From the NCBI RefSeq assembly GCF_014201715.1, contig NZ_JACHFD010000002.1:248001-312000 (forward strand): a DNA stretch of 64,000 nt. Reading direction: 5' to 3'. The DNA comes from Haloferula luteola. GTDB lineage: Bacteria > Verrucomicrobiota > Verrucomicrobiia > Verrucomicrobiales > Akkermansiaceae. The notes under the pieces were generated by a model. That model saw only the letters and a list, made by a program, of their open reading frames with translations, was not told where the DNA came from and searched no databases. Made by a program: the position numbers and the translations under genes. Positions 1,722 through 13,104 of this stretch are shown here, piece after piece. How positions within the stretch are numbered: the first letter of the stretch is position 1; each line of letters opens with the position of its first letter.

Positions 1722-2492
1722 TCAACGAGCCCCTCGAAACGGCTCACCCAACACCCAACGCCGGGCGATTTCTGGATCGCCGGTGATGGGGCCATGCACG
1801 CGGTATTGAGACCGCCGCAACACCTCTGCCCGGTCTTCCGGCTCGTCCACCACACACCACGGCTTGGAGCCCGACGAATGGACGAAGTGAAACTCGCCAT
1901 TCCCGACAATCAGGAAGCCCACATGCGTATCGAGACCCACGATCCGAATGCCCGGCTTCTCGCCTTTCACCTCTTTGGCAAACTCTGCGTAGTCGATCCC
2001 CACCCGGCGCACCGTCGCCTGCTTCGGCACAAATGTCCGCAACATCGTTTCTGACGCCTCGCGTGCCAGTTCATAACGATCGACTTGGAAGCCCACATCG
2101 CGCAGCACTGTCGCCACGAAATAACCACACGCGATCGGCGCATCTCCCGGACCCTCTGCCGTTCCGTTGAAGTCCCATGGCGTGCCCATCCAGCAAGCCA
2201 TCATGTCCGGCAAAATCGACTCCAGGAATTGCGAGGCTTCCTTCAACACCTCCTGCCGTTCCTCTTGGGTGGCAGCCGCCTGATATCGCTTCTTCAAATC
2301 CTTCCGCCACCGCTCTGCCTCGGATTTGGCCATTTCATAACCTTCTGGATCCGGCCGTCGAAGCCGCTGGCGGAGTTCGATCACACCACTCCAGCCCCCC
2401 TCCCAGCGATCGCGGAATTTCCACGCCGCCCACCCCGCCGCCCCCAATATCAGGACGAAGAGCAGGAAGATTGCCCTTTTCATCTCATCCAT
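1722..2492 (-). CDS. Membrane-anchored NlpC/P60-like putative cysteine peptidase or amidase
   Basis: 256 residues with an N-terminal membrane anchor or uncleaved signal (residues 4-24), a charged helical linker (50-90) and a domain resembling the NlpC/P60 papain-like fold. The likely catalytic Cys122 sits in [11 protein letters not shown] His follows in [10 protein letters not shown] (H190), and another in FHFVHSSG. NlpC/P60 enzymes usually cut peptidoglycan stem peptides. Here only the Cys/His layout supports the call, so the substrate is open. The gene overlaps the end of hisF by 8 bases. An alternative start is the ATG at 2483, directly after the hisF stop. Translation is probably coupled to hisF. 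Confidence 0.6.
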
Positions 2493-3255
2493 CGACGTGA
2501 GGCCTCACCGGGATCCCTCGCTCGGCAAAATGGCGTTTCGCTTCCCCCACCGTATGCGTTCCAAAGTGGAAAATACTCGCTGCCAAAACAGCATCCGCTT
2601 TGCCCCGCTCCAACACCTCAACCATGTGATCCAAATGGCCCGCACCTCCGCTGGCAATCACCGGAATCCCTACCGCTTCGGATACCGCGGCCGTCAGTTC
2701 GCAATCGTATCCTGCTTGGGTACCGTCCGCATCCATGCTCGTTAGCAAAATCTCCCCAGCACCTCGCCGCCACACCTCCTTCGCCCATTCCACGGCATCC
2801 AAACCCACGGGAGTCCGCCCACCATGGGTGTAAACTCCCCATTTTCCAGGCCCCTCACGCTTGGCATCGATCGCCACCACGATGCACTGGGCGCCAAACG
2901 CCTTGGCCCCCGCATCGACCAGCTCCGGCGTTTTCACCGCAGCCGTATTCACCCCGACCTTGTCCGCCCCTGCCAAAAGCATCTCGCGCATGTTTCCCAC
3001 CGTTCGAATGCCCCCTCCCACCGTCAACGGAATGAAGCAGTGCTCTGCTGTCCGCCGCACCACATCCACCATCGTGCCACGATCATCCGAGGAAGCCGTG
3101 ATATCAAGAAACACCAACTCGTCGGCCTGCTGCTCATTGTAGGCCATCGCACATTCCACCGGATCTCCGGCATCGATCAAGTCCACGAAATTGACGCCTT
3201 TGACCACACGGCCATCGGTGACGTCCAGACAGGGAATGATGCGTTTCGCGAGCAC
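2485..3255 (-). CDS. hisF: Imidazole glycerol phosphate synthase subunit HisF
   Basis: HisF is the cyclase half of the HisH-HisF complex. It turns PRFAR plus ammonia into imidazole glycerol phosphate and AICAR. The core [19 protein letters not shown] carries the catalytic Asp11, [10 protein letters not shown] carries the second catalytic Asp, and [18 protein letters not shown] and VIASGGAG are the phosphate-binding loops of the (beta/alpha)8 barrel. I start at the GTG at 3255 because it gives 256 residues, the normal length, and begins at the conserved [11 protein letters not shown]. The frame stays open upstream, with ATG at 3291 (268 residues) and 3351. No other his gene is in view. Confidence 0.93.
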
Positions 3256-3374
3256 CCCGGCAGGGAAACCGCAGCGAGCCCGCTTGTCCATCCTGCGAAT
3301 CACCCGGAGAATCCGCACGCCCCCGCACCAAACCACTTGATCGCCGCCCATCCTTCGCTTCCATCCTTCTCATC

Positions 3375-3931: not shown

Positions 3932-4645
3932 TCACTCGGGCTCCCCGGGATCCACCGGTTCGAGCCAGGGTGGGAGATCTTTGAAATTGTAGATCTTCGG
4001 CTGCTTTGAGCGCCCATCGATCGTCACGACCACCAAGTCACGTTTGGTCTCCAACGCCTTCCAGCCCGGGCTCGAAATCGAAGCCCACTTCCCGTTCGGT
4101 GCCTGCAATTCAATGACCGCTTGGTACATGTTCCAATCGTTCACCTTCACCACCTTCGGATAAGTTTGCATCCCGCCCGGCTTGACCGCCGGCAGCACCG
4201 CGCCAGCCAGGGTCAAGCGGGAGGGATAAGGGGTCAGGTTGACATAGCGCACTCCCCCCATCGGGAAGGAACGCACGTCGTCCGCCATGCAGAGAATCTT
4301 ATAGGGCATCTCCTTGTCCTCATTGGGAACCACCAAAAAGAACTGCCGGGATCCACTCGCTAACTTTCCAGCGGCAACGACCCGCTTTCCTCCTGCAACC
4401 GAAGAATCCTCTACATAGAAAGAAGCCACTCCGTTCTCAAACACTGCTTGGTGGACCTCGCCAATGCTACCGGTATAAAGCGCCACCTCCTGGTTCCCTC
4501 CCTTGCCGGACGCGCAATACACCGAGCGAATTCCTTCCTGATAGGAAATGCAGATTGCTCGAAACGCGACCTCCTGACCCACCGCAGGGAGGTGGAGGAT
4601 GCTCAGAACCAAAAGAACCAGTCGGATGAAAAATCGATGTTTCAT
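3932..4645 (-). CDS. Secreted protein of unknown function
   Basis: 237 residues with a Sec signal peptide (MKHRFFIRLVLLVLSILHLP, cleavage probably after AVG near residue 23). The mature protein is beta-rich, with phrases such as MGGVRYVNLTPYPSRLTLAG and PKIYNFKDLPPWLEPVDPGE. I do not recognise the family. It lies 14 bases downstream of the giant pilin-like gene on the same strand and probably shares its transcript, so a role in the same envelope or surface structure is plausible. That is inference from position only. Confidence 0.65.
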   Translation of the reverse strand: MKHRFFIRLVLLVLSILHLPAVGQEVAFRAICISYQEGIRSVYCASGKGGNQEVALYTGSIGEVHQAVFENGVASFYVEDSSVAGGKRVVAAGKLASGSRQFFLVVPNEDKEMPYKILCMADDVRSFPMGGVRYVNLTPYPSRLTLAGAVLPAVKPGGMQTYPKVVKVNDWNMYQAVIELQAPNGKWASISSPGWKALETKRDLVVVTIDGRSKQPKIYNFKDLPPWLEPVDPGEPE

Positions 4646-4659
4646 ATCTGCGCAGTCGC

Positions 4660-7600
4660 TTAGATTTCTTCAGCCACCAACCAACGGAATGACCGCACCT
4701 CAAAGCGTCGGCCGAACTTTTCGTTGATCGGACTCAACTCATCCAACTCCGTTTCCGCCACGTCCGTGGGATCCACATAATCGGGCATCCGCTGCACCAC
4801 AGCTTCACACCATGCTCGAGCCTGAATCGTGCCCTGCTTGTTGTCGGATTGACCATAGGCACGGATCACAAAGGTATCCCCTCGCACCGTCATTTCACTT
4901 CCCAGGGCAGAAAGAATATCCCCCTGAGTCAGGGACCCTGGGGCTCCCTCGGAGTTATTGCCCAAGGCCGCACTGGGATTCACCCAATCATGGTCCCCCA
5001 TGTTCTGAGCCTCCAAGTCCAGGCCGTCACCCTCAATGGTCGCATTCACCTCGGTCTCATGAATCGCAGCCGCGAGCGCCCCACGCCGGGAAGAAGCGTC
5101 GTTCTGGCCACCCAGTCGACGATTCACGAACTCCGCAAGCGACAGAAAAGGACCACGCTGATGAATCTCATCCACCAGGTTCTCCGCCAGCGCCTGAATC
5201 TGCGTGGCATCCAACTGACGGTATCCCTGCCAGCGAGGTTCGCGCTCCGAGAAGAAGCTATCACCTCCCTCAATCGGGCCATCCGCAGGATGACGCACCC
5301 GGGGAAATGCCGAAGAATCTCCAGAATCCACCAAACCATCTTCCTGATTCGCAATCTGCGTATCCCTCATCGACGAGAGGAACGCGACCCACGCATCAAC
5401 CGAGGTCGAATTCACATTGAATCCCCCCTTCAAGCCTACATACTTGCCGACCAGCTTATCGCCATCGGTGCCGCCGATACTTTCTGCTGCGGCCGCACCT
5501 TCAGTCGTCGCCACCAAGGGAACCATCCGTGGATTCAACAACTCCCGCGTCTGAGAAAAGAAATCCTCCCTTACTTCGTCCGCTCCACGATCATCCCCTT
5601 GGAACGAATCTCCCTCGTAATCCGCCATCGTCGAAAGGAAGTAACGATCCCAGAGCGCCGCATTGCTAAGATAGGCGTGATCGTAGATCTTACCACTCCC
5701 CGTGGGATTGCTACCCGAAACCTCACCCGCAGGAATCATCGGATTCGCCCACGACTCACCCACCGTGTAGGTCATGAAAGGAGGCACACCCGAGTTGGCC
5801 AAGTTCGCATGACGAAATTGGGCTAGCGACTGCATCGGCGCATGCGGGATCTCATAGAAAGTAGCCTTCGACGTCCCACGGTCAGAATCGTGGCCACCGA
5901 AGAAGTAGCCTTCGCTCTCCTCCACCCCCACACCGATCGATGGAGTGCTGGGCTCCACCGGAACCATCACCATCTCATACGGCTGGTCGCCCGGTGCTCC
6001 CGCTCCCGACGAAATGTCCATGTCCGCGACAAACAAGTTTGTCGAAGAATCCACATACGGCCGAGTCGGCACGAAGGACTCACGTGTCGTCTTGCCAGTG
6101 AAGCTCATGATCGCAAAAGGCCGAGCCCGCGAATAGGCACTGAAGGGCGTCGAATCCGCCTCATAGATTTCCTGAGCACGAACATCCGGGCTCGAACCAT
6201 CCGGCCAGGTCATCGGAAACTCACGAGTATCAGGATAACGCTCGGAAGTCCCCTCTGCTGCCATTTCATCCAGATTCTTTTGGTCTCCATAGCTCATCCG
6301 ATACATCCCTGCAGCCTGCCCGTTGAGCTCCATCACGATGTTGAACTCCATCTTCGAATTGGCCAACGGACCCCATTCGACGCCAATCCGGTCGGTCCGC
6401 TTCGCGCCCACTGTTCCCCCAGCACAGAAGGCCGAAGCCATCGCCGTCTGGTTGCTTGGAGCAATGTAGTCGACGTCAAACCCCGCCCCACTCGTCGGGT
6501 CCGACATCAGCCCCGGAATCATCTCAAACTGAGGAGTCCGGTCACTCTGCCAGTCGAACAGCACCTTGTTTCCGGAAGAAGAAATCTCATCCGCCCACGA
6601 CCAGGTCGGATTCACCGCAATGGTGCCGAACACCCGCGTCTGACCTGGCTCCAAAGTCACGGTCGTCGCATCACTGCCGCTCAGCGACTGCTTCACCGTG
6701 ATCCCGAAAGTCTTGCCATTTCCTTGATACTCCGGAAGCACCAGATCCGAAAGAGTGATCAAACTCGATGTCGCCGGACGCTTGTTGTTGTAGAACTTGA
6801 ATCCAACCGGGATGTCTTGGAACGACAGCTTCATGCCCTCAAAGGAAATTGGCGTATCGTAAGGATTGTGCAGCGTGATCACCGGGAGATACATGAGGTG
6901 AATCATGAAATCGTTCTTCAGTGCCGTGTGCTGCGACTTCCAATAACCCGTGTGCGGCACCCGAGCGACGATCGAAAACACCATGTCCACCTTGAGAAGA
7001 CTCGGCATCAGCACCATGCCGCGAGGAACCTGGGGATTGGCCGTATAGCTCGTTCCCGACTTGCTGAACGGACGCAATCCATTGGGAAGAGAGGCCCCCA
7101 CGGCATCCGAACGAACATTGCGAGCAAAGGAAGTGCGCTCTCCGATTTCCTTGTAGAGGTTGTGATAGTCCACCAAAGTCGCCAACGAAGGATCAGAGTT
7201 CGAATCATTGGGAAGTCCCACATGCTGGTAGAGACTTCCTTCGGATTCAAAACTCTGAGGATTCACGGTAAACGCCGTACTCAGATCCCTCTTGAATCCA
7301 CCATCGACAGGATTCGTCATCAGCGAAAGCGACCATGGCGTGATGTCCGACCGGTAATTCCTCAGCGAGGTATTGTTGGTGCCCAACACCGCGGAATCAA
7401 AGCTGACCAACTTCTTGGCCAGCACCTCATCCGGACGAAGATCCTGCAACTGATCCAGGGCGAAAGTACCGAACCGCGCCGGCGAAGATGCCCGCGCGAT
7501 CTTCTTCGCCAAAGTGGAACCCTCCGCGAGTTCGACTGGCTCCTCCAAATCGAAGCGAGCCTTCAAACTCTCATCAATCACTCCCCACGCCAACTTGCCA

Positions 7601-8160
7601 TACGAACGGCCCGTTTGAATCTCGAGCGGCTTACTGCGCAGATACTGCCCTTCCGCATCCGCTCCGGCACTCGGTCCGAATGAATCTTCCCCAAGCAACG
7701 TGACGACACCCTCGTCCGTCGCCTCAGGCATCGGCGGCATGGTCGACCCCACCGCCTCAGAACGGAAGGCATCGGAAACCAACCAATCCACAAATTTCCC
7801 ATCCTTCTCGCCGACCGCTTCCACCAGCTCATTTGAAGTGCTGGCTTCCCAAACGCCTGTCACTCCCAGCGGAGCTGACTCCTTCACCATGCTCGCAGGC
7901 GCAGTGATCCGTCGATCCGGACCTGCTTGCTTCTGAAGCTGCCCAATCGCCAGCTCCAACGCGAGCCGGGCATTCGCCCGAGCCTCCCGCATGGAGTCCC
8001 CCGAACGAGAGCCACGCAGCGACACCGAAGAAAGGGCCAACAAACCCACGGCCAATAGGGTGAGAATGACCATCAAACTGATCGTGATGACCAATGCGAA
8101 TCCGCTTCGACGGTTGGGCTTCCTCCGTCGGAACCGGGAGAGAGACTTGGAGTATTTCAT
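4660..8160 (-). CDS. Verru_Chthon cassette protein A-like giant pilin-like protein
   Basis: 1166 residues. A basic N-terminus (KYSKSLSRFRRRKPNRRSG) is followed by FALVITISLMVILTLLAVGLLALSS, a type IV pilin/PilX-like hydrophobic helix, and then ARANARLALELAIGQLQ, typical of Verru_Chthon cassette protein A (TIGR02600 family). The rest is a long extracytoplasmic region containing repeated mention of strands and an ALAENLVDEIHQRGPFLSLAEFVNRRLG segment. Family members usually sit with cassette proteins B, C and D, which are pseudopilin-like. None of these is in view. The frame extends to 8211, but the ATG at 8160 directly precedes the basic stretch. The function of the cassette is unknown; export through a type II/IV pilus-like machine is a guess from the N-terminus. 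Confidence 0.85.
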   Translation of the reverse strand: MKYSKSLSRFRRRKPNRRSGFALVITISLMVILTLLAVGLLALSSVSLRGSRSGDSMREARANARLALELAIGQLQKQAGPDRRITAPASMVKESAPLGVTGVWEASTSNELVEAVGEKDGKFVDWLVSDAFRSEAVGSTMPPMPEATDEGVVTLLGEDSFGPSAGADAEGQYLRSKPLEIQTGRSYGKLAWGVIDESLKARFDLEEPVELAEGSTLAKKIARASSPARFGTFALDQLQDLRPDEVLAKKLVSFDSAVLGTNNTSLRNYRSDITPWSLSLMTNPVDGGFKRDLSTAFTVNPQSFESEGSLYQHVGLPNDSNSDPSLATLVDYHNLYKEIGERTSFARNVRSDAVGASLPNGLRPFSKSGTSYTANPQVPRGMVLMPSLLKVDMVFSIVARVPHTGYWKSQHTALKNDFMIHLMYLPVITLHNPYDTPISFEGMKLSFQDIPVGFKFYNNKRPATSSLITLSDLVLPEYQGNGKTFGITVKQSLSGSDATTVTLEPGQTRVFGTIAVNPTWSWADEISSSGNKVLFDWQSDRTPQFEMIPGLMSDPTSGAGFDVDYIAPSNQTAMASAFCAGGTVGAKRTDRIGVEWGPLANSKMEFNIVMELNGQAAGMYRMSYGDQKNLDEMAAEGTSERYPDTREFPMTWPDGSSPDVRAQEIYEADSTPFSAYSRARPFAIMSFTGKTTRESFVPTRPYVDSSTNLFVADMDISSGAGAPGDQPYEMVMVPVEPSTPSIGVGVEESEGYFFGGHDSDRGTSKATFYEIPHAPMQSLAQFRHANLANSGVPPFMTYTVGESWANPMIPAGEVSGSNPTGSGKIYDHAYLSNAALWDRYFLSTMADYEGDSFQGDDRGADEVREDFFSQTRELLNPRMVPLVATTEGAAAAESIGGTDGDKLVGKYVGLKGGFNVNSTSVDAWVAFLSSMRDTQIANQEDGLVDSGDSSAFPRVRHPADGPIEGGDSFFSEREPRWQGYRQLDATQIQALAENLVDEIHQRGPFLSLAEFVNRRLGGQNDASSRRGALAAAIHETEVNATIEGDGLDLEAQNMGDHDWVNPSAALGNNSEGAPGSLTQGDILSALGSEMTVRGDTFVIRAYGQSDNKQGTIQARAWCEAVVQRMPDYVDPTDVAETELDELSPINEKFGRRFEVRSFRWLVAEEI

Positions 8161-8592
8161 GAGCAGGACTTCACCAGGGGTTGCGAATCGTCCCGGGAAT
8201 TCCTCACTCAAATGCCGGTCAAATTATGACACAATTAAGACTGGCCTTTAGTGGGTAAATCCCCCAAACGAAACGGTTCTTTTGGTGATACCAGACCTTC
8301 ATTGCCACCGTCGAGCGGCAGATGGCTTTTGTGCCATATTTCCAGTTTCCGGGAGGTTTTCGCCGCAGATCGATCCGCGGGAGCATCCCCAAAACCAGTC
8401 TCCGTGGCGGCTTCCAGGCTCTTCAAAGCTGGAAATGCCCGCGGAGACGCAAGCCGCAAGCGGGTTTCGCGCCACATTCGACACCGGCCCTGTCACCGGG
8501 TAAAACCACGCAATCTTGGAGCCATGGCCGTCCCAGACCAAACAACGGCCTCAAGCCGCATCATCACCTTCGCCCGACCTCGCGGGAAACCC
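8161..8592. other. Gene-poor region upstream of the Verru_Chthon A-like gene, with a structured hairpin
   Basis: I see no convincing gene here. Next to the pilin-like gene (8215-8240) is an AT-rich stretch that could hold its promoter, with a CATAAT-like -10 on the minus strand at 8223-8228 but no good -35. Farther on, 8398-8448 can fold into a long hairpin: GTCTCCG (8398-8404) pairs with CGGAGAC (8442-8448), and GGCTTCCAG (8409-8417) pairs with CTGGAA-(AT)-GCC (8429-8439). Reading frames crossing the stretch look like chance. Confidence 0.5.
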
Positions 8593-8943
8593 TCAGGAAA
8601 CCGGCGGCTCAAACCGCGAATCCACCTCTTTCTCGTGGAGCCAGAAACCCGCCACAATCAACCCCACACCCAAAGTCAGCAGCACCATGGGAACATTCAC
8701 CGCAACCCATCGCACCCCGGCCGACATCCCGGACATGCTGTGAAAAAACTCAGTGTAAGCGAGGATCCCCAAACGCCCGAGAATCAGCGCAATCGCCCCC
8801 CAAATCATGAGCGGAGCATTCAAGGAATGGTAGCGCTCGGCCAACCGAATGGCCCCCACCGCCACCAAACCCAATCCCATCAATCCTGCCGTATCCAGCA
8901 GAAAGGACTGATTGAAAAGCACTTCAAAAAAAGCCGCAATCAT
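8593..8943 (-). CDS. Small integral membrane protein (second of a coupled pair)
   Basis: 116 residues with about three hydrophobic helices: LMGLGLVAVGAIRL, LMIWGAIALILGRLGILAYT and VNVPMVLLTLGVGLIVAGFW. A short polar C-terminal tail follows. I do not recognise the family. The ATG overlaps the stop of the preceding gene as ATGA (8940-8943), so the two are translationally coupled and probably form one complex. The frame stays open far upstream, but that part runs through the neighbour. Confidence 0.7.
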   Translation of the reverse strand: MIAAFFEVLFNQSFLLDTAGLMGLGLVAVGAIRLAERYHSLNAPLMIWGAIALILGRLGILAYTEFFHSMSGMSAGVRWVAVNVPMVLLTLGVGLIVAGFWLHEKEVDSRFEPPVS

Positions 8944-9332
8944 GGGCGCACGATCGTGAATTGAACAGGGCGGCGAGGAGGAAGCGGAGCCCGTGAGGCC
9001 CAAAACAATCCCGCCCCAAACAACAGCCATCCGCCATTCAGGGAGAAGGCCTTCACCACTTGCCAAGCCATCGCCACCACAGGATCCCCATCCACTTGGA
9101 ACAGGGCAGCCTCGGGACTCATCAACACCCCCATCGCATAAAGAGGAAGGATCACCGAGTAACCGAACCCCAACAAAAGGGCTCCCGCCATCAGAATCCG
9201 CGCCGGCCATCCCAACCATTTCCTCGATATCCTCCAGGAAATCACCACGAGGGAAATTCCCATCAAAATCAAAAAAACCGGACGCGCGGCATCAAGCGAA
9301 GCCAAGGGGGGCAACTCCGTGATCAGGGGCAT
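8940..9332 (-). CDS. Small integral membrane protein (first of a coupled pair)
   Basis: 130 residues with three likely membrane helices: RPVFLILMGISLVVISW, ARILMAGALLLGFGYSVILP and SLNGGWLLFGAGLFWAS. Family not recognised. I use the ATG at 9332; a TTG two codons upstream is possible. The downstream gene overlaps as ATGA. A perfect palindrome (9369-9385) lies about 40 bases upstream and a cobalamin riboswitch points toward this operon from about 620 bases upstream. Whether the riboswitch reaches this far is unclear. Confidence 0.7.
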   Translation of the reverse strand: MPLITELPPLASLDAARPVFLILMGISLVVISWRISRKWLGWPARILMAGALLLGFGYSVILPLYAMGVLMSPEAALFQVDGDPVVAMAWQVVKAFSLNGGWLLFGAGLFWASRAPLPPRRPVQFTIVRP

Positions 9333-9368
9333 GCGCAAGCCATCGCCTCCCCTAACCGATTGATCAAT

Positions 9369-9385
9369 AAGCTTTTGAAAAGCTT
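9369..9385. promoter_or_regulatory. Perfect palindrome upstream of the small membrane-protein pair
   Basis: AAGCTTTTGAAAAGCTT is a perfect inverted repeat of two 8-base arms around one G. TTGATCAA, another palindrome, lies next to it at about 9359-9367. The stretch is AT-rich in a GC-rich background and sits 37-53 bases before the ATG at 9332, the usual place for a promoter or operator. No U-tract follows on either side, so a terminator is unlikely. The binding protein is unknown. Confidence 0.4.
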
Positions 9386-9951
9386 AACCTAACTACTCCA
9401 CAGCCATTAAAATCAAGCCCCCCAAATCACCTGCGACCCAATCCCCGAGTTTCCGGGAAATGACACCCTCCCCCACGATCACGCTTCCGTCATCACGGTA
9501 TGGCTTTTGCGGAAAAATTTCTTCGCTCCGACCAGCAAGCCCCTCCCCCCAGACGGACTTGCTGGCCATGGATCCGGGTCCCTCCCTCCCTTTTTGCCCC
9601 CAAGCAAGCCATGCCCTCAGGCATTCCCCCGGCCGCTTGGAGAACAGGATCCGCCCCATGGTGACTCAGAAAAACATCTCCGAGGCCACGAAATGCGAAA
9701 AAACAGGAAAGCCCCTTCTATCCTCCACCCACAGGCCCGCCTTTTTCCAGGCCCCAACGGCCGTCTCGCCACGAGCTCGCAGCTCTCACCTTTCGGAAAC
9801 GGCCAACCCGCCACCACGAAATCTTGGAACCGCGATCACCGACGCACGATCCAACGAGCCCATCCAGCGCCCGCCCGAGGCAGCACGCCATCATTATTCC
9901 TATCATGTCACTCTCTGGGATGCCTGAACTCCGCAGGCCGCTGAGAAAAAA
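9386..9951. other. Gene-poor region downstream of the cobalamin riboswitch
   Basis: About 560 bases on the output side of the riboswitch. I see no recognisable coding sequence in any frame. The longest frames (for example minus 9393-9659 and plus 9460-9927) have no family resemblance and overlap one another. On the minus strand there is a short frame with a fair ribosome site at 9718-9891, listed separately. Another minus-strand frame gives a protein-like stretch, GLWVEDRRGFPVFSHFVASE, that lacks a start codon and follows a stop. This could be decay of a former riboswitch-controlled gene, but no parent can be named. Confidence 0.5.
9718..9891 (-). CDS. Possible short ORF behind the cobalamin riboswitch
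   Basis: A 57-codon frame beginning MACCLGRALDGLVGSCVGDR. An AGGAA motif lies 5 bases before the ATG at 9891. An overlapping ATG one codon earlier (9894) is also possible. It is the first plausible initiation site after the riboswitch, about 60 bases on. The peptide is Gly/Arg/Trp-rich and matches no family I know. It may be a leader peptide, the remnant of a lost gene or chance. Confidence 0.22.
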   Translation of the reverse strand: MACCLGRALDGLVGSCVGDRGSKISWWRVGRFRKVRAASSWRDGRWGLEKGGPVGGG

Positions 9952-10085
9952 CCTTCAGGCTGGCGTCCTGACTCCCCAGCTCTTTCAAGCCAAGTCACAG
10001 TGGCGGTACCGCTCCGGAATCGCACCGGATTTCCCATCAATTTCCTGCCCGTGCCACGGGCCTCCCGAAAGGACTGCGACCGTCT
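9952..10085 (-). ncRNA. Cobalamin (adenosylcobalamin-type) riboswitch
   Basis: Read on the minus strand, the region has the ordered landmarks of the Rfam cobalamin family: ATGGGAAATCCGGTGCGATT (GGGAA plus the GGTG box; GGGAA at 10031-10035), then TTCCGGAGCGG, then the B12 box CCGCCACTGTGA (CCACTGT at 9997-10003), then GAGTCAGGACGCCAGCCTGA near the 3' end. The GATTCCGG arm pairs with CCGG upstream, as in the conserved core. The 3' end runs into TCAGG-acgccag-CCTGA followed by AGG and six T, which could act as a terminator. Such elements turn off B12 synthesis or uptake genes, or genes replaced by B12-dependent versions. No such gene follows here. The ends are approximate. Confidence 0.88.
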
Positions 10086-10179: not shown

Positions 10180-10926
10180 ATGGGCTTCAAACGCGTCGCA
10201 TCCGCCACCACTCGCCACCAGGCCCTCGAAATCTGGAAGTCTCCCGTTTCCTGTGAGTTCCGCGTCGCTGGTGCCGTCCACGCCTGGTGGCATCAGGAAC
10301 GATTCCTCACCGGCCTCGCTTGGGATAACCTCGCCGCGGCCACCCTCTTAAGACCTGAAGCCCCCCCCCGCTCCGTCCTCATGCTCGGTCTCGCGGGCGG
10401 CACCACCTTGCGCACCCTCCGCCATCTCCTCCCCGATACCCGCCTCACCGCCATCGATCTGGATCCAGAAATTGTCGACCTCGCCCACGAACACATGCAC
10501 CTCGGCGAAACCAACACCGAAATCCACATCGCCGATGCCTACGACTGGGTTACCCACACCGATCAGTGCTTCGATATCGTCATCGACGACTGCTACCTCG
10601 CCGGAGCCGACGACGTTTACCGCCCTGAGCGCCACCCCGAAAAACTCATCGGCAACCTCCGCCCGCGCATCGCTCCAGGTGGCTTGCTCCTCGCCAATCT
10701 CGTCACCGGCTCCGGCCACCGTCGCTTGCAATCCCGCATGCGGGCCGCTTTTCGCCGGGCATTTCCCCAAGTCCGTTCCGTCACCACCCCCGATAGCCTC
10801 AACGAAACCCTCGTCGGCGGTGACCACATCCTCACCGCTTCCTCCCTCCAACGCTGGACCTCTCACTTCCCCTCCTCCAAAGACCAACGCTACTGGGATC
10901 GAATTGATGTTCGGCTCCTGTCGTGA
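10180..10926 (+). CDS. Spermidine-synthase-like class I SAM-dependent methyltransferase
   Basis: 248 residues. The glycine-rich SAM motif I is SVLMLGLAGGTTLRTL, the acidic end of strand beta2 is LTAIDLDPEIVDLA, the motif near IHIADAYDWV gives the next ligand, and FDIVIDDCYLAGADDVYRPE follows strand beta4. This layout is that of spermidine/polyamine synthase-fold enzymes and their orphan relatives. True spermidine synthases have a DGG-type strand-4 motif and a longer N-terminal beta domain, so aminopropyl transfer is doubtful here. An in-frame GTG at 10144 would add 12 residues; I prefer the ATG. It runs divergently from the riboswitch. Confidence 0.78.
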   Translation: MGFKRVASATTRHQALEIWKSPVSCEFRVAGAVHAWWHQERFLTGLAWDNLAAATLLRPEAPPRSVLMLGLAGGTTLRTLRHLLPDTRLTAIDLDPEIVDLAHEHMHLGETNTEIHIADAYDWVTHTDQCFDIVIDDCYLAGADDVYRPERHPEKLIGNLRPRIAPGGLLLANLVTGSGHRRLQSRMRAAFRRAFPQVRSVTTPDSLNETLVGGDHILTASSLQRWTSHFPSSKDQRYWDRIDVRLLS

Positions 10927-11709: not shown

Positions 11710-13104
11710 ATGTCCACCACCGTCGGTCTCATCTCTCTCGGCTGCGCCAAAAACCTCATCGACTCTGAGGTCATGATGGGCCATCTGGCCCAAGCAGGCA
11801 TGGCTCTCACGCCCGATGCCGAACTGGCCGATGTCCTCATCGTCAACACCTGCTCGTTCATCGACATGGCGAAGAATGAGTCCATTGAGGCCGTCTTCGG
11901 AGCCGTCAATGCGCGCAATGACGACAGCGAGCGGAAAAATCAAAAAATCATCGTCGCCGGCTGCCTTTCCCAGCGCTTCGCCACACACCTCCCCGGCCTC
12001 ATGCCGGAAGTCGACGCCTTCATCGGCCTCGACCAGATCACCAAAGTCGCGCCCATCATTGAAGGTCTCGTCGGCAAAACCCCCGCGCCGCCAAAAGACG
12101 ACGGCGTCGCCACCGACGACGAGCGCGACTTCGTCACCCTCAAGCCCAAGTACGTCCCCGACTACAACACCCCTCGCTGGCGCCTCACTCCCGATCACTC
12201 CGCCTACGTCAAAATCGCTGAGGGCTGCAACCACACCTGTACCTTTTGCATCATCCCAAAAATCCGCGGCATGCACCGCTCGCGGACTCAGGAAAGTGTC
12301 GTTCGCGAAGTCCGCGATCTCGTCGCCGCAGGGGTGAAGGAAATCAACCTCATCTCCCAGGACACCACCTACTTCGGCATGGATAAATGGGAGGGCAAAC
12401 GCCCCAATCCCAATTCTCCCGTCGATTCCACCCGAGGAGAATCCCTCGCCTCACTCCTCCGGGAGCTCAACACCATCGAAGGAGACTTCTGGATTCGCCT
12501 CCTCTACACCCACCCGGCGCACTGGTCAGATGAGCTCATCGAAACCATCGCCCAGTGCGACAAAGTGGTGAAATACGTCGACATCCCTCTCCAGCACATC
12601 TCCGACCGCATGCTCGCGGCGATGAAGCGGAAGACCAATGGCGACTACATCCGTGACCTCCTTCGCCGCATGCGCGCCGGCATCCCCGGCCTTGGCATCC
12701 GCACCACCTTCATCGTCGGCTTCCCCGGCGAAACCGAAGAAGACTTTGAAGAACTCCTCGAATTCATCCGCGAATTCCGCTTCGAGCGTGCCGGTGTCTT
12801 CCAATACTCCAAGGAAGAAGACACCCCCGCTTACAAGATGACCGGACACATCCATCACATGACCCGCAAGAGCCGCTGGTCCCGTGCGATGGCCGAACTC
12901 CAAAACATCGCAGGCGAGCTCAACCAACAACAAGTCGGCCAAGCCGTCCGCGTCCTCGTCGAGGAACCCGGAGTCGGCCGCACCGCTTGGGATGCCCCCG
13001 AAATCGACGGTTCCGTCCACGTCGACGAAACCATTCCCGTCGGTGAGTTTGCCGAAGTCACCATTCGCGACTGGCGCGGCTACGATCTCGTTGCCGCCCG
13101 CTAA
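11710..13104 (+). CDS. rimO: Ribosomal protein uS12 methylthiotransferase RimO
   Basis: 464 residues. RimO is a radical SAM enzyme that adds a methylthio group to an Asp of ribosomal protein S12. The N-terminal UPF0004 domain holds three Cys for the auxiliary 4Fe-4S cluster (GCAKNLIDSE, NTCSF, AGCLSQR at about residues 12, 48 and 84). The radical SAM motif GCNHTCTFCIIPKIRG follows, and a TRAM domain ends the protein. The opening VGLISLGCAKNLIDSE separates RimO from MiaB. The ATG at 11710 gives the normal family length. Confidence 0.96.
   Translation: MSTTVGLISLGCAKNLIDSEVMMGHLAQAGMALTPDAELADVLIVNTCSFIDMAKNESIEAVFGAVNARNDDSERKNQKIIVAGCLSQRFATHLPGLMPEVDAFIGLDQITKVAPIIEGLVGKTPAPPKDDGVATDDERDFVTLKPKYVPDYNTPRWRLTPDHSAYVKIAEGCNHTCTFCIIPKIRGMHRSRTQESVVREVRDLVAAGVKEINLISQDTTYFGMDKWEGKRPNPNSPVDSTRGESLASLLRELNTIEGDFWIRLLYTHPAHWSDELIETIAQCDKVVKYVDIPLQHISDRMLAAMKRKTNGDYIRDLLRRMRAGIPGLGIRTTFIVGFPGETEEDFEELLEFIREFRFERAGVFQYSKEEDTPAYKMTGHIHHMTRKSRWSRAMAELQNIAGELNQQQVGQAVRVLVEEPGVGRTAWDAPEIDGSVHVDETIPVGEFAEVTIRDWRGYDLVAAR

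Follow-up and report, generated by a model that had tools for sequence, protein, structure and literature searches.

The cobalamin riboswitch on the minus strand of the window (the entire 64-kb stretch of Haloferula luteola DNA analyzed here) is very probably a relic whose receptor gene, btuB1, was lost: no inherited target remains, and the two small membrane protein genes that now lie downstream (orf1 and orf2) appear to constitute a separate unit. The riboswitch itself is genuine and of an established kind; what is unusual is its state, the loss of btuB1 having left it an orphan.

A complete riboswitch

A scan of the whole window (cmscan) returned a single Rfam match above gathering, to RF00174 (Cobalamin), at 10083-9941 on the minus strand: the model is matched from end to end (1-189), with a score of 43.0 bits (E 1.8e-7) against a gathering cut-off of 31.5 bits. 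A cobalamin riboswitch on this strand had been claimed in the first-pass annotation from the conserved core, with a covariance-model check against RF00174 as the proposed test, and the significant match bears this out. The span given there (9952-10085) is correct to within about 10 nt, but misses the regulatory hairpin P13 (9938-9922). No same-type orthologue in the genus (28-43 bits) scores higher than the window riboswitch.

Table 1. Features of the riboswitch, the spacer and the neighboring genes, with positions in the window.
Feature	Position	Strand	Remarks
Cobalamin riboswitch aptamer (RF00174)	9941..10083	-	covariance-model score, full model 1-189
P1 closing helix, 7 pairs	10072-10065 with 9959-9952	-	86% paired in an alignment of 12 sequences; both partners changed in 3 pairs
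U6 run after P1	9951-9946	-	
P2 hairpin GCCCGU-GGC-ACGGGC	10047..10061	-	96% of cells paired
P4 hairpin UCCGG-UGCGAUU-CCGGA	10013..10029	-	100% of cells paired, one compensatory change
P5/L5 hairpin GCGGU-ACCGCC-ACUGU	9997..10012	-	helix 93-97/104-108
L5 CCG, predicted kissing-loop core	10006-10004	-	invariant across 12 leaders
J6/3 and 3' side of P3, CAGGACGCCA	9961..9970	-	includes window changes G9967 and A9966; A10032 opposite
P13/L13 regulatory hairpin GCCUG-CGGAGUU-CAGGC	9922..9938	-	100% paired in 12 sequences
L13 CGG, complementary to L5 CCG	9933-9931	-	invariant across 12 leaders
Spacer, site of btuB and terminator in relatives	9339..9921	-	nothing resembling btuB; similarity to relatives confined to an element at about 9372-9360
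62-aa ORF, probably not a gene	9718..9906	-	starts (ATG 9906) where btuB starts in relatives; coding z 0.7, no Pfam
orf1, small membrane protein, bystander	8940..9338	-	conserved in genus; start TTG 9338 or ATG 9332
orf2, small membrane protein	8593..8943	-	overlaps orf1 by ATGA
hisF, synteny anchor on other side	2485..3351	-	
Spermidine-synthase-like methyltransferase, synteny anchor	10180..10926	+	divergent; start by homology
rimO, synteny anchor	11710..13104	+	

Alignment with orthologous leaders shows that P1, P2, P4, P5 and P13 are all present in the window riboswitch. The core helices are backed by covariation in the orthologues; at one predicted core pair (73-150) the window alone has A-C. 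Among the 12 leaders two pairs of P13 have changed on both sides, one of them being G-C in the window and A-U in most. These compensatory changes, together with the complementary CCG and CGG, are the sequence features of an L5-L13 kissing loop with P13 as expression platform. The tertiary contact is predicted from this complementarity; the same bases, CCG in L5 and CGG in L13, have been established by experiment as the kissing-loop bases of another corrinoid riboswitch (PMC10653944). Cobalamin binding and a resulting change of expression are putative functions of the window riboswitch.

Two other arrangements were considered and rejected. Pairing of L4 (GAUU) with L13 involves just 68.8% of cells, and was replaced by the L5/L13 pairing described for the other riboswitch (PMC10653944); a terminator-like hairpin (9971-9955) followed by the U6 run is not conserved in relatives, and such hairpins are no more numerous than expected by chance. 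No conserved promoter is visible upstream of the riboswitch in the alignment.

Three core positions (A10032, G9967 and A9966) have changed in the window at sites that are invariant in the ten other leaders of the genus, the closest btuB-linked orthologues, and the changes would disrupt two predicted core pairs. In L023, the leader of a btuB in another genus, the same A is matched by a compensating change on the other side, and the two J6/3 changes move the window sequence closer to the Rfam consensus: both slight decay and an altered yet working core are therefore possible.

btuB1 behind the riboswitch in relatives

A DNA search covering 57 genomes of the genus, family and order produced matches in 12 genera, and almost all of these matches took in just the riboswitch. 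When about 13 kb was fetched around each of 20 loci (from the family and order), a TonB-dependent receptor of about 600 aa was found downstream of the riboswitch in every case (20/20). In nearly all of these loci the receptor is the next gene, and it begins 170-190 nt from the point where the match starts; G007, G009 and G012 have a DUF4465 gene between the two. In Luteolibacter marinus (L016) the gene was overlooked by the ORF picker and is clearly present (609 aa). The receptors carry the Pfam Plug and barrel domains, and their best NCBIfam model is TonB-B12 (TIGR01779), with scores below that model's strict cut-off. We call this receptor BtuB1; the next gene is BtuB1-like in nearly all of the loci. 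A different, second receptor is called BtuB2.

Four genomes of the genus (G002, G006, G008 and G013) have the order riboswitch-btuB1-orf1-orf2 on one strand. In relatives the conserved aptamer and P13 stand directly before the btuB start. The ancestral state would be a riboswitch serving as the leader of btuB1, in a class that controls btuB in the genus. As to mechanism, in the model described for the E. coli btuB and env8 riboswitches B12 stabilizes P13 via the kissing loop and translation is lowered (PMC10653944). By analogy with these studied relatives, the L5-L13 kissing loop of the B12-bound aptamer would stabilize P13 beside the btuB ribosome-binding site, and the stabilized P13 would lower btuB translation.

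The loci of G009, G012 and G007 (L018, L020 and L022) differ in that the window-type riboswitch precedes a DUF4465-BtuB2 cassette. The first protein of these cassettes has a BtuB1-like signal peptide, and DNA homology to BtuB1 loci continues for about 90-100 nt within the coding region. Apparently the riboswitch was retained while recombination within the signal peptide exchanged the receptor behind it. In G001 (L065 5701-9027) the same locus, from the methyltransferase to orf1, holds a TonB receptor, judged by eye to be siderophore-like, along with a PepSY-like membrane protein; neither a B12 riboswitch nor BtuB was found in that assembly (90% complete).

Probable loss of btuB1 from the window

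The absence of a B12 gene downstream of the window riboswitch, with two small membrane proteins in its place, had been noted at the outset and is confirmed. The comparison of synteny that had been suggested as a search for a lost B12 gene supports the orphan status: relatives carry btuB directly downstream of the riboswitch, and it is absent from exactly that place in the window. The RimO closest to the window's (91%) is that of G002, where the order is w1722-hisF-orf2-orf1-btuB1-riboswitch / methyltransferase-w10975-rimO. The window is colinear with this order minus btuB1, and has three extra genes (3375, 3932 and 4660) between the membrane pair and hisF. One of these (4660-8211) encodes a 1183-aa protein whose N terminus weakly matches Verru_Chthon cassette protein A (TIGR02600); with 3932-4645 it forms an insertion relative to the G002 order.

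BtuB1 was not found elsewhere in the window's own genome, the best query matches (about 30% identity) being to short parts of other TonB receptors. In a MiaB tree, genomes that bear BtuB1 stand on both sides of this genome, whose exact place is weakly resolved. Loss of btuB1 in the window's lineage is therefore the most likely course of events.

The first-pass annotation had offered decay of the target as one option. The gene has indeed gone from the site, but it was lost outright: searches of 9331-9960 with nine BtuB1 sequences (hmmsearch --max with all filters off, nhmmer, blastx, blastn) gave no btuB remnant and no recognizable pseudogene. Homology to relatives ends at 9923, just inside P13; the old start position lies 17 nt further on. 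Most simply, the stretch from the leader to orf1 would have been deleted or replaced, and btuB1 and its terminator lost with it.

Divergence bears on the timing of the loss. Relative to G002, dS is about 1.1 for RimO and about 1.75 for HisF; if half of the RimO value is put on the window's branch, about 40% of unselected sites should, by our own estimate, have changed. Of 92 positions without variation among the ten other leaders, only 8 differ in the window: the riboswitch RNA has thus been under selection for most of this branch. Either btuB1 was lost late, or something still maintains the RNA. A btuB gene that decayed by point mutation in the short time remaining should still be recognizable, which makes slow decay less likely than deletion or replacement, or else the riboswitch is still selected; the data fit both. 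That selection kept the RNA for some other purpose after the loss – as an independent B12-binding RNA, or as a B12-sensing leader whose read-through drives the membrane pair – we consider unlikely; if it were so, the altered P3 and J6/3 positions would represent retuning rather than decay.

The membrane protein pair

A further possibility raised in the first-pass annotation was that the riboswitch reaches the membrane pair. Neither orf1 nor orf2 has a meaningful match in Pfam or NCBIfam. All 16 good-quality genomes of the genus carry the pair, in most cases far removed from a riboswitch. In each of the 16, whether or not btuB is near, orf1 is preceded by an element of the approximate form TTGGnAGTC-N(about 16)-TTTAATAA-CTCTTGCTCAAnGACTTACG. 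The version in the window is divergent, with TTGATCAAT. Across 9338-9400 of the window and the corresponding DNA of 15 relatives, the strongly conserved CTCTTGCTCAAnGACTTACG follows a promoter-like stretch, and together they may represent a promoter and a leader.

In three of the four btuB-linked relatives the pair is parted from btuB by a strong intrinsic terminator directly after the receptor gene (L015, -26.8; L016, -26.1; L017, -22.5 kcal/mol); the fourth (L019) has a weaker terminator between btuB and the pair. Given these terminators and the pair's own conserved upstream element, orf1-orf2 is probably its own transcription unit rather than a riboswitch target, and control of the pair finds no support as an inherited arrangement.

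A new arrangement is a separate matter. No terminator-like hairpin was found between 9960 and 9300 in the window, and with the terminator lost, read-through into the pair is possible; a link between riboswitch and pair could then be an accidental novelty. If the riboswitch now controls the pair, the leader transcript would continue for some 600 nt until it enters orf1-orf2, making them B12-responsive. The pair lies on the same strand and is the next conserved gene, and the aptamer and P13 are largely intact. Nevertheless, a translational P13 switch would not be expected to act on orf1 from a distance of 585 nt, and the pair carries no B12 annotation. These points, added to the conserved upstream element and to the terminators and unlinked copies in other genomes, make present control of the pair very unlikely. 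The case also serves as a warning not to assign B12 control to this downstream pair.

The spacer

About 585 nt separate P13 from orf1. Nothing marks this DNA as a repeat or mobile piece: its matches elsewhere in the genome are no better than chance, it contains no tandem repeats, and no inverted-repeat pair flanks the locus. Control of a small spacer-encoded protein – also among the original suggestions – is highly improbable. The 62-aa ORF begins at the position of the btuB start in relatives, and an 88-aa ORF (9659-9393) has mildly coding-like codon use (z 3.1); however, the former appears non-coding, a search of 59 other family genomes gave no homologue of the latter, and neither has a Pfam match. 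That btuB1 is truly present and was dropped through an assembly error is barely credible: the assembly is a draft (84 contigs, 95.5% complete), but the locus lies within a 383-kb contig, unique DNA rather than a bare junction replaces btuB, and BtuB1 is absent from the rest of the genome.

A second B12 locus in the same genome

The window's genome has two cobalamin riboswitches and is unique in this respect, every other riboswitch-bearing genome of the genus having one. The second (contig C15, 63 bits) precedes a DUF4465 PEP-CTERM-like protein, BtuB2 and a third protein, and is adjoined by metE on the other strand. As a whole this region (L033 7042-13341), with riboswitch, DUF4465, BtuB2, w10143 and convergent metE, is a B12 uptake locus beside a B12-independent methionine synthase. 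Proteins of the DUF4465 family bind B12 (PMC13398666).

B12 uptake should still be useful, since the genome encodes proteins with B12-binding domains: one, in a 1288-aa frame, would fit MetH, and two others, of 726 and 750 aa, would fit a mutase pair (names inferred from size). We infer that BtuB2 can supply this uptake; with its own riboswitch, it probably made BtuB1 dispensable.

Discussion

The window riboswitch is a rather ordinary evolutionary leftover. Its value lies in showing clearly that a riboswitch can survive the gene it served; because a close relative preserves the intact arrangement, the fate of the orphaned element is open to test. In the literature searched we found no report of an orphaned btuB riboswitch in Verrucomicrobiota. 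Within the genus, the riboswitch locus is variously accompanied by BtuB1, a BtuB2 cassette, a receptor-less cassette or nothing, making the genus a useful system for asking how riboswitches persist while the genes behind them change.

The receptor-less state is represented by Haloferula rosea (G015, L067), which also has a B12 riboswitch in a genome where neither BtuB1 nor BtuB2 was found. Its riboswitch (6900-7101) has the top score of the genus (72 bits) and is followed by a DUF4465 protein and a homologue of w10143. Unlike the window riboswitch it is not fully orphaned, because the DUF4465 protein, of a B12-binding family (PMC13398666), has been kept behind it. The btuB leaders of G002 (L015) and L. 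marinus (G013; L016/L074) are orthologous to the window leader, and in G002 the flanking genes are also the same; these loci differ from the window in that btuB is present and is followed by a terminator.

Compared with RF00174 (clan CL00101), the window riboswitch shares the full-length model match, the aptamer core, the P13/L13 hairpin and the CCG/CGG kissing-loop core; it differs in the P3 core changes and in having no B12 gene downstream. The type borders two Rfam families, since the orthologous leader of L. marinus (L016 4403-4504) fits the related family RF01689 (AdoCbl-II) better than RF00174.
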